From: a bacterium HR19
Lineage (GTDB): Bacteria > Calescibacteriota > Calescibacteriia > Calescibacteriales > Calescibacteriaceae
Direction: 5' to 3'
NCBI GenBank assembly: GCA_002898315.1
Contig: BEHV01000002.1
Coordinates: 1 to 64,000, forward strand
Length of the DNA: 64,000 bases
In this document: one piece after another, positions 15,748 through 64,000 of the stretch
Numbering within the stretch: position 1 is the first letter of the stretch
Layout: every line of letters begins with the position of its first letter
Notes under the pieces: generated by a model
Database searches by the model: none
What the model was told of the DNA's origin: nothing
The model's input: only the letters and a program-made list of their open reading frames with translations
Made by a program: the position numbers and the translations under genes

Positions 15748-15821
15748 GGCGGACGACGGGGCTCGAACCCGCAACCCCGGGAGCCACAGTCCCGTGCTCT
15801 TCCAGTTGAGCTACGTCCGCC
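15748..15821 (-). tRNA. tRNA-His (GTG anticodon)
   Basis: Cloverleaf reads clearly on the minus strand: acceptor stem GCGGACG/CGTCCGC, D-stem GCTC/GAGC, anticodon stem CGGGA/TCCCG with loop CTGTGGC giving anticodon GTG, and T-arm GCGGG-TTCGAGC-CCCGT. The gene encodes the extra 5' G (position -1) opposite C73, the identity element for histidyl-tRNA synthetase, giving the unusual 8-bp acceptor stem. The CCA end is not encoded (CCT follows C73), so a CCA-adding enzyme is required. It sits between rsmI and the CoA-binding gene on the same strand. Confidence 0.97.
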
Positions 15822-61386: not shown

Positions 61387-62928
61387 ATGGAAACAGTTGT
61401 GGAACTCCTTGAAGATAAAGCAAAAAGGTATCCGCAGAACAAAATTGAGGTCTACGGTGTTGAAACTATGACATTTCAAGAGTGGAATTCAAAATCAACA
61501 AAACTTGCAAACATTCTCTACTATGATTTTGGAGTGAGAAAAGGAGATAGGGTTGCGATTATGTTCTCAAATAAAGATGCGGTGTTTTTCAAAATATCAT
61601 ATTTTGGAGTTGTAAAGTGCGGCGCTCTTCCCGTTCCCGTAAATATCAGATTGCCCGCAGAAGGAATAAAATTTGTGCTGGAAAACTCAGAAGCAAAAGG
61701 TATTATTTTCGGAGATGAATTTTCAGAAAACATACAGAAGCTCAAAAAAGAAGTAAAACTTGGTTTTTATATTTCAAGAAGTCAAGCCGAAAACGCGCTT
61801 TCAAACAAAAAAGATGGTAATCCCCCGCCTGTTGAAATCAAAGGTTCAGACCACCTTGATATAATTTATACATCAGGAACGACGGGATTCCCAAAAGGTG
61901 TGATTTCTACTCACAGGTCTCTTTTTGTGAGAGATGACTCAATTTATGAATCCATGTACGCAGGAAGAACATTCTTACACGCTGTGCCTTTATTTACATT
62001 CGCTGGCTGTCATGCTATGATGCTCATACCATTGCGATACGCTCTTAATGCGGTGATACTTCCGAAATTTGATGCGAAACATTTCCTTGAAGTTATGAAG
62101 AGAAAAGGTATAGTGATGGTTTATGCTGTCCCGTTCCACCTTCTTTCTGTTATGAGAGAGGAGGAGTTTGAAAAATCTGACCTTGAACACATAAAGCTTA
62201 TTATGTTTGGAACCGCTCCGATGCCACCTTGGGCTGTAAAAAAACTCGCAGAAAAACTTCCATCAACATGGATTATGAACCTTTACGGAGCTACCGAAGC
62301 GGGAATGGCAGGGTGTTTCCTCCCACCGGGTATGGCTTCTCAAAAACCAGATTCTATCGGAATACCACTCCCCCCAACAGAAGTCAAAATATGTGATGAT
62401 GATGGTAATGAAGTGCCACGAGGACAGAAAGGAGAGATATGGATGCGTATCCCCGGAGTAGACCCGAGAAAATACTTCAAAGATGAAGAAAGCTCAAAAA
62501 AAGTATGGACGGAAGATGGATGGGTCAAGACAGGAGATATAGGATATATGGATGAAGATGGCTATCTTTATGTTGTTGATAGAAAAAAAGATATAATAAT
62601 ACGTGGTGGTTTCAATATATCGTCTGCGAAGGTTGAAGGTGTGATTATGTCTCATCCAGATGTTGTTGAGAGCGCGGTTGTAGGAGTTCCCCATCCACTT
62701 TTGGGAGAAGATGTCTTCGCATTCGTTGTCGCAAAAAGAAAAATATCTGAACAAGAACTTATAAACTTTCTCAAAGATAAGCTTGCAGATAATGAAATAC
62801 CTCGCTACTACGAGTTTGTAGATGAACTCCCTAAAAATGCAACGGGCAAAGTTTTAAAATACGAGCTCAGAGAGAGAGCGAAAAAAATATACGAAGAAAG
62901 AAGAAGGAAAGAAGGCAAGGAAGTTTGA
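61387..62928 (+). CDS. Acyl-CoA synthetase/AMP-dependent ligase
   Basis: 513 aa, medium-length class of adenylate-forming ligases. IIYTSGTTGFPKGVISTHRS binds ATP; AVPLFTFAGCHAMMLIP and MNLYGATEAGMAGCFLPPG follow; WVKTGDIGYMDEDGYLYVVD and RKKDIIIRGGFNISSAKVE form the hinge. The catalytic lysine is in PKNATGKVLKYELRER. Acyl specificity is not readable. Divergent from the MerR-type regulator; an acyl-CoA dehydrogenase lies downstream on the same strand beyond the TnpB remnant, so activation and oxidation of an acyl substrate may have been one operon before the insertion. Confidence 0.92.
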   Translation: METVVELLEDKAKRYPQNKIEVYGVETMTFQEWNSKSTKLANILYYDFGVRKGDRVAIMFSNKDAVFFKISYFGVVKCGALPVPVNIRLPAEGIKFVLENSEAKGIIFGDEFSENIQKLKKEVKLGFYISRSQAENALSNKKDGNPPPVEIKGSDHLDIIYTSGTTGFPKGVISTHRSLFVRDDSIYESMYAGRTFLHAVPLFTFAGCHAMMLIPLRYALNAVILPKFDAKHFLEVMKRKGIVMVYAVPFHLLSVMREEEFEKSDLEHIKLIMFGTAPMPPWAVKKLAEKLPSTWIMNLYGATEAGMAGCFLPPGMASQKPDSIGIPLPPTEVKICDDDGNEVPRGQKGEIWMRIPGVDPRKYFKDEESSKKVWTEDGWVKTGDIGYMDEDGYLYVVDRKKDIIIRGGFNISSAKVEGVIMSHPDVVESAVVGVPHPLLGEDVFAFVVAKRKISEQELINFLKDKLADNEIPRYYEFVDELPKNATGKVLKYELRERAKKIYEERRRKEGKEV

Positions 62929-63069
62929 GTCAAAAATTTTTATAAGCTGACGGGAGGGGCAATCAACAGTTAAAGGAAAATGTGCAATTTTGCGCAATTG
63001 GAGTTAAATGTTGCTAAGTGTGAAAAAAAGTTCAAAAACTTTATAATATCAAAAGAGGAAGAGAGAAAA

Positions 63070-63246
63070 ATGCTAACTGCTAAAACTACAATTCAAGCGA
63101 GGCTTTTGATTAAAGGAGAACGAAAACAAATACTTGATGACCTTATGAGACGGTGGTCTTCTTGTATGAGATTTGCATACAAAAGACTTCTTGAAGGAAA
63201 AACAAGAAACGAACTTAAACATATTTTTTACAGGAGAATTTTTCAA
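63070..63246 (+). pseudogene. tnpB: TnpB (IS605 OrfB) N-terminal fragment
   Basis: From ATG 63070 about 59 codons read MLTAKTTIQARLLIKGERKQ, ILDDLMRRWSSCMRFAYKRL, LEGKTRNELKHIFYRRIFQ, matching the N-terminal part of archaeal/thermophile-type TnpB (RNA-guided nuclease of IS200/IS605 elements). The RuvC and zinc-finger parts are missing: similarity ends abruptly near 63246. A second frame just after (KALSVSQGRCLGRPKEGTQA) may be a scrap of the C-terminus. The fragment cannot be an active nuclease. A predicted 205-aa frame starting at 62980 merely runs through this fragment and the RNA-like region. Confidence 0.7.
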
Positions 63247-63249
63247 AGC

Positions 63250-63600
63250 CCTCAGTGTGAGTCAGGGACGGTGTCTGGGGAGACCGAAGGAAGGAACTCA
63301 GGCACTGCGGGGCATCCAGGGAGGAGAGCCTTCCGAAATCTCTGGCAAGTGCTGAGGGTAGCGGTGCTAACAGCACTCTCTCCTGAGGGGCAAAAAGTTC
63401 CAAGATGCTTCTCTCCCTTGAAGCCTTTGATGGTTTCAGGGGAAGTGGGGAGAATCCAGAAAGGGCGTGAGTTCCTGCTACTTGGGGCGGGGGCTATGGG
63501 TGTCCAAATGCCGCCAGCCGGGTCTCTGGACACCCTGAACAGGCGGGGTATAAGTAACCCGGCACCCAAACTGTGTAAAACTGCACAGTTCGGGTAACCA
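63250..63600 (+). ncRNA. Omega-RNA-like 3' end of TnpB element (candidate guide RNA)
   Basis: In IS200/IS605 elements the omega RNA is made from the 3' end of the element and ends with a guide copied from flanking DNA. Here the region holds a perfect 8-bp stem GGGTGTCC (63498-63505) with GGACACCC (63528-63535), a GGCGGGG/CCCGGC-rich core, and a terminal hairpin ACCCAAACTGTG (63564-63575) with CACAGTTCGGGT (63584-63595, one mismatch), followed by AACC. The next bases, AGGGCAAGTTTATGATTGAC, would be the guide and include the start codon of the downstream gene. Identification is by architecture; sequence search would be decisive. Confidence 0.5.
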
Positions 63601-63610
63601 GGGCAAGTTT

Positions 63611-64000
63611 ATGATTGACCTAACACTGACACAGGAAGACAGAGAGCTTATAAAGAATATAAGGTTTTTGGGAGAGAAGTTCATGCGTCCTTTGGGAATA
63701 GAGTATGATGCAAAGGGCGAGCCAGTCCCACCAGACCACCCGTTCTTCAAGATGCTCGCTCAAATAGGATATCAGGAAAGAGTTGCCGGTATGGGAAGAG
63801 AGATGGACGACCTGAAAGACGAAAAGGGGAAAAAAGAGAGAACCTCTGCAAGAAGAGCCGTTCTTATCGGAGAGGAGACATCTTACTGGGATAGAGGTGT
63901 TGCAGTCGCTCTGCCGGGACCCGGTCTTGCCGGTCCCCCTCTTATGCTCATCGGTACTCCCGAGCAGAAAGAGAAGTATCTTTCTATTTTCAGAGATAGA
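63611..64000 (+). CDS. Acyl-CoA dehydrogenase, N-terminal part (runs off window)
   Basis: 130 codons visible. Begins MIDLTLTQEDRELIKNIRFL, with FFKMLAQIGYQERVAGMGRE, RAVLIGEETSYWDRGVAVAL and LMLIGTPEQKEKYL, the helical N-terminal domain of FAD-dependent acyl-CoA dehydrogenases. It oxidises acyl-CoA to enoyl-CoA. The active-site region and FAD motifs lie beyond the window. Its AGGG Shine-Dalgarno (63600-63603) sits immediately after the terminal hairpin of the TnpB remnant, so the insertion forms its 5' untranslated region. Confidence 0.85.
   Translation, partial: MIDLTLTQEDRELIKNIRFLGEKFMRPLGIEYDAKGEPVPPDHPFFKMLAQIGYQERVAGMGREMDDLKDEKGKKERTSARRAVLIGEETSYWDRGVAVALPGPGLAGPPLMLIGTPEQKEKYLSIFRDR

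Follow-up and report, generated by a model that had tools for sequence, protein, structure and literature searches.

An IS607-type TnpB element without its nuclease core at the start of an acyl-CoA dehydrogenase gene of bacterium HR19, and related omega-RNA cores as candidate 5′ leaders of housekeeping genes

We analysed a stretch of 64,000 nt of bacterium HR19 (the window; GCA_002898315.1, BEHV01000002.1, positions 1-64,000), in which 62950-63613 was read directly. In this region the genes of an acyl-CoA ligase and an acyl-CoA dehydrogenase are separated by an element which, judged by homology, is a derivative of an IS607-type TnpB element lacking tnpA and the core of tnpB. Between the ligase stop codon and the element lie 29 nt, the last six of which are GGGAGG, and the element is separated from the ATG of the dehydrogenase gene by 8 nt (Table 1). 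Only an N-terminal stub and a C-terminal tail of TnpB are kept, whereas the catalytic core is gone. The host assembly (G000) has 1,875,992 bases and is 82% complete.

Table 1. Features of the TnpB-deleted element and its flanks in the window
Feature	Position	Strand	Basis and remarks
Acyl-CoA ligase gene, upstream in operon-like pair	61387..62928	+	PF00501, E 5.6e-72; ligase-dehydrogenase order also in L107 and L108
GGGAGG, Shine-Dalgarno of the dehydrogenase gene before the insertion; at present left flank and target motif	62952..62957	+	Sequence; AAGGAGG in L107; family left ends
Whole TnpB-deleted IS607-type element	62958..63602	+	Left flank motif, right-end homology limit, empty site; exchange point within GG dinucleotide ambiguous
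Left end, TCAACAGTT motif followed by imperfect hairpin	62963..63003	+	Left-end profile, E 7e-5; window is one of the profile's seeds
Fused open frame, stub through omega block to TAA	62980..63597	+	About 205-207 codons; 175 from ATG 63070
Promoter-like site GTGAAA-16-TATAAT	63020..63047	+	Consensus only, 10/12 matches; region has 2 sites versus 0.7 in shuffles
tnpB 5′ stub	63085..63219	+	77-84% DNA identity with intact elements; TIGR01765
Filler at deletion, 25 nt	63220..63244	+	Relatives carry 985-999 nt at the same place
Omega-RNA (reRNA) scaffold overlapping TnpB C-terminal tail	63245..63602	+	Seven element 3′ ends; 105/114 predicted pairs
Omega core	63498..63563	+	Covariation over 36 sequences, window included
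P1 of omega core	63498-63505/63528-63535	+	Covariation
Pseudoknot PK1	63511-63515/63542-63546	+	Covariation
Pseudoknot PK2	63517-63522/63558-63563	+	Covariation
Terminal right-end hairpin	63564..63595	+	Fold; kept in relatives
Right terminus TAACCAGG	63595..63602	+	Its TAA closes the fused frame; most family right ends are TAACCAGG or TGACCAGG
Right flank, would-be guide (8-nt spacer and first dehydrogenase codons)	63603..63622	+	Position only; length of 20 nt taken by analogy from PMC11061315
Acyl-CoA dehydrogenase gene, 404 aa, extends beyond window	63611..64000	+	PF02771 N-terminal domain; start conserved in orthologues

The original prediction, made from the letters alone, had described a left-end hairpin, a TnpB N-terminal fragment that stops abruptly and a G+C-rich structured block before an acyl-CoA dehydrogenase gene, together taken for a TnpB-deleted element. 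All these features were recovered. The TnpB N-terminal model TIGR01765 matches residues 37-87 of the open reading frame (ORF) 62980-63597 (E 8e-13, 48.2 bits, cut-off 47.25), in which no Pfam family was found at E 0.001. The TnpB homology ends at 63218-63219 and is followed by 25-26 nt of filler, up to the block. As predicted, the block ends in a hairpin and AACC, 11 nt before the ATG; it closes with GGGTAACCAGG, and the family homology runs 3 bases further, to 63602. For comparison, 80 loci with related TnpBs were collected by scanning genome contigs, and the window stretch was searched by BLAST against all loci collected (the nucleotide database also contained two protein rows, 'nocore', neither of which gave a reported match). 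The block, 63245-63602, matches the 3′ ends of seven elements (L104, L094, L090, L091, L081, L083 and L093) at 72.8-81.4% DNA identity, so that its predicted nature as the 3′ end of a TnpB element was confirmed. Six of the seven (not L104, which lacks the stub side) also match parts of 63055-63219 at 77-84%. The relatives with matching ends are intact TnpB elements of Aquificales; the L094 protein, for instance, matches TnpB models (TIGR01766, E 4e-17).

Between the two matching parts, six of the seven close relatives and L086, which is cut by a contig end, carry 985-999 nt versus about 25 nt in the window, a net loss of 969-972 nt, in frame. A TnpB from the same genus (G001) gave two pieces in the host genome, 63088-63219 (residues 3-46) and 63286-63453 (residues 445-496), each weak (E ~0.1), which we regard as the two sides of one deletion. 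It sits on a short contig of Candidatus Calescibacterium nevadense; 5% contamination is given for G001, and the contig may be foreign. The origin of the filler was searched for and not found. The element is present as a single copy in the host genome. A DNA search of 60 genomes gave one other match, of 28 bp at an unrelated locus, and searches of plasmid DNA and, with the stub, of viral contigs gave no lead. This 28-bp match (93%) is between the deletion junction (63224-63251) and L005 of a distant genome, upstream of an unrelated gene, and is probably due to chance.

The assignment to IS200/IS605 did not hold, because a more distant member of the group, L062, carries an IS607 transposase upstream (NF033518, E 1.5e-68). 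Moreover, the target is GGAGG and not a T-rich pentanucleotide (no search for the Y1 family was made). The serine-recombinase TnpA of IS607 type is absent from the window copy and from G000. Published IS607-family TnpB elements such as ISFba1 consist of TnpB and a 3′ guide RNA, the reRNA (PMC11061315). The window element resembles IS607 elements (PMC11061315, PMC6188088, PMC4058570) in its 3′ guide RNA, in needing no target duplication and in its GG exchange point, and its GGGAGG is comparable to the AGGAG or GAGGG that adjoins their left ends (PMC11061315). Unlike them it has lost tnpA and the tnpB core, and in its TnpB group the C-terminal tail is encoded across the omega RNA. Group B IStrons (PMC4227781) are also IS607-type, insert at GG-containing sites and soften the damage at the RNA level; they self-splice by a group I intron, whereas the window element has no intron.

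The clade of L010/L025 and Thermocrinis was rejected as the direct source, since its TnpBs sit in elements with other ends; the closest relatives are the seven elements named above. This second clade (L026-L042, L010/L025 and L088; Thermocrinis and G001) has inverted repeats GAGGCTGTTCTAAAAAT and ends that are not IS607-like; L088 is an internally deleted copy of it. In the 82%-complete host assembly no TnpB of the window's family and no IS607 transposase was found, and hence none of the full copies sharing the 3′ end for which the original prediction had suggested a search. The sole other TnpB found in the host (contig C5, L003 1386-2648), with a zinc-ribbon domain, was rejected as a partner because it belongs to a different family and contains an in-frame stop.

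The empty site was compared in relatives, as had been proposed. Orthologues of the dehydrogenase were found in five of five genomes, and upstream sequences were compared in four (L110 was left out). At the same gene, the sister genome L107 has an intact AAGGAGG Shine-Dalgarno sequence. The ligase-dehydrogenase junction is uninterrupted in G002 (97% protein identity), where the ligase stop codon, 33 nt containing AAGGAGGTGAACCTTTT and the ATG follow each other, and in G001, which reads AAAGGAGG. G003 has AAGGAGGGG before the dehydrogenase gene and a different upstream sequence. GG is present at both junctions and in the empty site (GGGAGG left, CCAGG right, GGAGG in the sister genome). As judged from these flanks, the element inserted between the GGGAGG Shine-Dalgarno sequence and the start codon of the dehydrogenase gene. 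Predicted Shine-Dalgarno pairing is −10.8 kcal/mol for the rejoined flanks and −3.9 kcal/mol for the present site, against a random mean of −3.3.

AGGAG is a Shine-Dalgarno core. The target was examined throughout the family. With a left-end profile that omits the flank, left ends were found in 29 of the 55 loci examined (window included), and GGAGG lies within 17 nt around the junction in 24 of the 29, versus 2.8% of random 17-nt windows; the profile was built from sequences on which it was later counted. Of 48 elements (window included), 28 are followed by a start codon at 2-18 nt from the right end (22 ATG), compared with 13.0% and 4.9% at random positions of the same loci; ORFs were required to have 80 codons or more, or 40 or more if they ran off the locus. 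In a second set, found separately with an RNA model of other elements, start codons follow the right end in 32 of 40 copies (27 ATG), and GGAGG was present at 8 of the 16 left ends found. Twenty of its 60 copies had been dropped since their flanks were in the first set, and shifted-end duplicates (L166 versus L074) may remain. Over the 15 elements that have two ends and are followed by a start codon, mean pairing was −10.9 kcal/mol when rejoined versus −5.1 kcal/mol at present. However, a target that is always a Shine-Dalgarno sequence was refuted by Thermus plasmids (10 records), where GGAGG precedes seven of the eight left ends found and annotated genes start within 20 nt in one of nine elements with a right end found.

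Published data fit this target. IS607 TnpBs recognise AGGAG (18 of 22 strains) or GAGGG (4 of 22), the AGGAG motif of one relative tolerated no single change (PMC11061315), IS607 exchanges DNA at GG (PMC6188088, PMC4058570) and the Shine-Dalgarno sequence of Aquificales is GGAGG (PMC4227106). In the literature searched, outside of which most subscription journals lie, the link between the IS607 target and the Shine-Dalgarno sequence is stated nowhere: the words ribosome, start codon and Shine are absent from the main text of PMC11061315; IS607 and Shine-Dalgarno were co-mentioned only in PMC13418256, on TldR, where they are unrelated; and 'ribosome binding site', in the IS607 paper examined for it, refers to a cloning construct.

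The block at the 3′ end proved to be structured, as predicted. Nucleotides 63250-63605 fold with −161.8 kcal/mol, better than all 100 shuffles (z −5.16). When only the seven relatives are used to derive the structure, it comprises 114 pairs, 105 of which form in the window and 106-114 in the relatives; leave-one-out tests gave 91-99% of the pairs for the relatives and 92% for the window. When the differences of the window were placed randomly, 83-85 pairs were kept on average and 97 at most (2000 trials against each of three references). By conserved pairing, the omega scaffold is intact. Thus the orphan omega RNA of the original prediction stands as far as the scaffold is concerned, whereas no family TnpB that it could load in trans was found in the host. 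R1, a model from 21 element ends and no leaders, scores the window at 145.7 bits, with full elements at roughly 120-164; the window is among the 21, which favours its score. In the host genome R1 found only the window block and the antisense of its own hairpin.

Within the scaffold lies a core of P1 and two pseudoknots. A hand-set structure of these three has 91.9% paired cells, 86 double changes versus 27 in shuffles and a covariation of 0.358 versus 0.129, and sliding the pairing partners lowers every measure; it was chosen on the alignment on which it was scored, which favours it, paired cells above all. A comparison with known RNA models gave no credible match in Rfam 15. The single overlapping match (E 0.21), to an opposite-strand snoRNA model, was rejected as a known family, and Rfam, which has no match there, does not assign the element to RAGATH-18. 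The only Rfam match of the window at gathering level is a tRNA gene (15748-15820, minus strand).

The stop codon of the fused frame lies inside the right end of the element, and upstream of it the two remaining frames extend for 5 and 13 codons without a stop. The TnpB frame likewise runs through the omega block in 17 of 48 relatives (Aquificales, Thermus and single others), where it stops exactly 5 nt before the end, while in others, e.g. Caldanaerobacter, it stops ~140 nt earlier. Copies without TnpB also occur elsewhere: L197 (G099), L210 and L211 (both G104) are mini-elements of ~390 nt with the full omega scaffold at different genes, and L197 and L210 have kept the left end and are flanked by GGAGG. 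In the three, the frame through the block has 123, 136 and 131 codons, respectively, versus 8-18 in other frames, and starts behind an own AAGGAGG.

Searching for the scaffold beyond complete elements led to a larger and less expected result than the window element itself. R1 gave 150 matches in 19 genomes holding family members, of which 100 were examined. Among the last 40 (37-112 bits, nearly all below 87), 36 had no TnpB stretch upstream within the piece examined (~2 kb, shorter where a contig ends); a start codon follows 35 of the 40 (28 ATG). Many of these cores lack CCAGG and have another purine-rich stretch in its place. The motif, a homologue of the omega core of ~100 nt with a double pseudoknot, lies before start codons of unrelated housekeeping genes (L219-L258, L289-L318; genomes G099-G110, G129 and G156). 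NCBIfam models identified the genes behind it as Hfq, L21, IlvC, LysA, MreB, FtsH, EF-G, thioredoxin reductase, Rho, S8, GlnA, RadA, YjbQ, thioredoxin, nucleoside-diphosphate kinase, S11, RpoA, EF-Ts and serine hydroxymethyltransferase; FabI, aconitase, DapF and SelD were assigned by reading the sequences. For hfq, ilvC, ftsH and rho the core has an equal position in two genomes each. In Fervidicola (L179, G108) and Thermovorax (L194, G107) a TnpB-less core precedes a selD-like gene with an in-frame TGA; the two are 89% identical from the core into the gene, with no long match further upstream.

With R2, an RNA model that includes leaders (threshold E 1e-5), matches were found in 46 of 61 genomes of one order, that of G099 (Aquificales), and a family TnpB or a piece of one in 28 of the 61. 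G129, a single contig of 1,500,577 bases, has 35 R2 matches and no family TnpB at E 1e-10; G156 has 18 matches and no family TnpB. Of the 33 G129 matches examined, 29 precede a start codon (27 ATG), versus 15.8% and 6.4% at random, a −10-like box adjoins the core in 12, versus 10.8% at random, and three still end in TAACCAGG. The window shares with this proposed leader class a P1/PK1/PK2 core directly before a start codon. Structured leaders of bacterial mRNAs, such as ribosomal leaders and riboswitches (PMC7247131, PMC2864571), are likewise covarying RNAs just before start codons; in contrast, the omega-core genes are functionally unrelated and the RNA matches a transposon end. We found nothing on point in the literature on TnpB with leader RNAs, Aquificales leaders, or orphan or domesticated guide RNAs, within the same limits of journal coverage, and the word leader is absent from the main text of an Aquificales non-coding RNA paper (PMC4227106).

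How could the window element influence the dehydrogenase gene? We lean towards the reading that it acts in cis as the 5′ leader of this gene, at an early stage of leader formation. An IS607-family TnpB element inserted between GGGAGG and the start codon, behind the ligase gene, and lost the tnpB core in frame; the left end, the promoter-like site, the omega scaffold and the right end were retained. The leader would be transcribed from the ligase side, perhaps also from the promoter-like site. As the strong Shine-Dalgarno sequence of the gene is lost, and on the basis of the open frames kept in the window and in L197, L210 and L211, we propose that ribosomes translate the fused frame to the TAA 13 nt upstream of the ATG and then restart. 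The weak AGG of the right end would help in this, as might the folded RNA. Later stages would be represented by the TnpB-less leaders that precede housekeeping genes in Aquificales and thermophilic Firmicutes. The original prediction that the remnant supplies the 5′ untranslated region (UTR) holds for its position, where a dehydrogenase leader would lie.

Several observations weigh against this proposal. A deletion is expected to be in frame by chance one time in three, and with a stop ~140 nt ahead of the right end in many TnpB frames of the family, a stop codon within that end is not needed by all. The pairing constraint covers the whole lineage of the element and not necessarily the time since the deletion, and although 11 of the 14 window-private substitutions fall on unpaired positions, two of the three paired ones break a pair. 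Unlike the trimmed leaders, the window copy keeps its left end and a long scaffold, as an intermediate form, and the five genomes of its phylum that were searched yielded no trimmed leader. Together with the single copy, the loss of the TnpB core and the near-random Shine-Dalgarno pairing, the broken pairs suit an inert relic, a decaying transposon fossil in which the structure is left only because little time has passed since the deletion, the gene being expressed adequately by chance. We regard such a relic as possible, though rather unlikely: the frame is open through the block, TnpB-less copies recur at gene starts and the window scores as high with the model as full elements do.

For the leader class as a whole, guide-RNA scaffolds of one IS607 TnpB family probably became 5′ leaders of housekeeping mRNAs repeatedly, also in what are now TnpB-free genomes, with the window as an early stage in another phylum. 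As the element targets a Shine-Dalgarno sequence, each insertion would put an omega RNA between the ribosome site and the start codon. Subsequently TnpB would be lost, the left end would erode and the right end might mutate towards a new ribosome site, so that the ~100-nt RNA remains as a cis leader (hfq, rho, ilvC, ftsH, rpoA, fusA, mreB and others in Aquificales, and, by eye, selD in two genera of Firmicutes). Such leaders might affect the expression of their genes. In the reverse scenario the leaders are an old cis-regulatory RNA that a transposon captured as its 3′ end, as their wide distribution, also in genomes without TnpB, might suggest. We consider it unlikely. The TAACCAGG ends in the TnpB-free G129 and the series from full element over two-ended mini-element to a leader that lacks the left end speak for a transposon origin, and by eye the leaders resemble the elements of their own lineage.

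It is also conceivable, at a low probability, that the window encodes an orphan guide RNA which loads a TnpB from elsewhere and cuts empty sites in other cells, the mini-element being kept or mobilised like a miniature inverted-repeat transposable element (MITE). Orphan omega RNAs of IscB, guide scaffolds without a nuclease gene, have been proposed to act in trans. The window likewise has a scaffold without nuclease gene, but belongs to another family. While the intact scaffold and the two-ended TnpB-less copies that share genomes with full elements (L197 in G099; L210 and L211 in G104) agree with this scenario, the lack of a family TnpB and of an IS607 transposase in the 82%-complete host assembly speaks against it.

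The idea of RNA-guided repression of the dehydrogenase gene, based on a guide over its ribosome-binding site and start codon, is scarcely credible: the would-be guide does span the spacer and start codon, and nuclease-dead TnpB regulators with exapted guide RNAs tied to host genes exist (TldR, PMC13418256), but a guide taken from the right flank of an element that targets Shine-Dalgarno sequences covers a start codon by construction, self-targeting is not expected as the bases before the guide match are ACCAGG and not GGAGG (judged by the strict AGGAG motif of the relative in PMC11061315), and no partner protein was found in the 82%-complete genome. TldR requires its protein and a guide matching a remote promoter, whereas no TnpB-like protein of the family was found in G000 and the flank is the gene itself. 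In one IS607 TnpB the right-flank guide begins one base later (PMC10711439).

Taken together, the insertion motif provides a simple reason why some TnpB guides lie over start codons, namely that it is a Shine-Dalgarno sequence, and guide position alone must therefore not be counted as regulation. In addition, an RNA motif without a credible Rfam match is common to a transposon guide RNA and to the regions before core genes. This raises the questions of whether the scaffold of an RNA-guided nuclease can turn into a cis-acting element of an mRNA, and of how a host tolerates a transposon that lands in its ribosome-binding sites.
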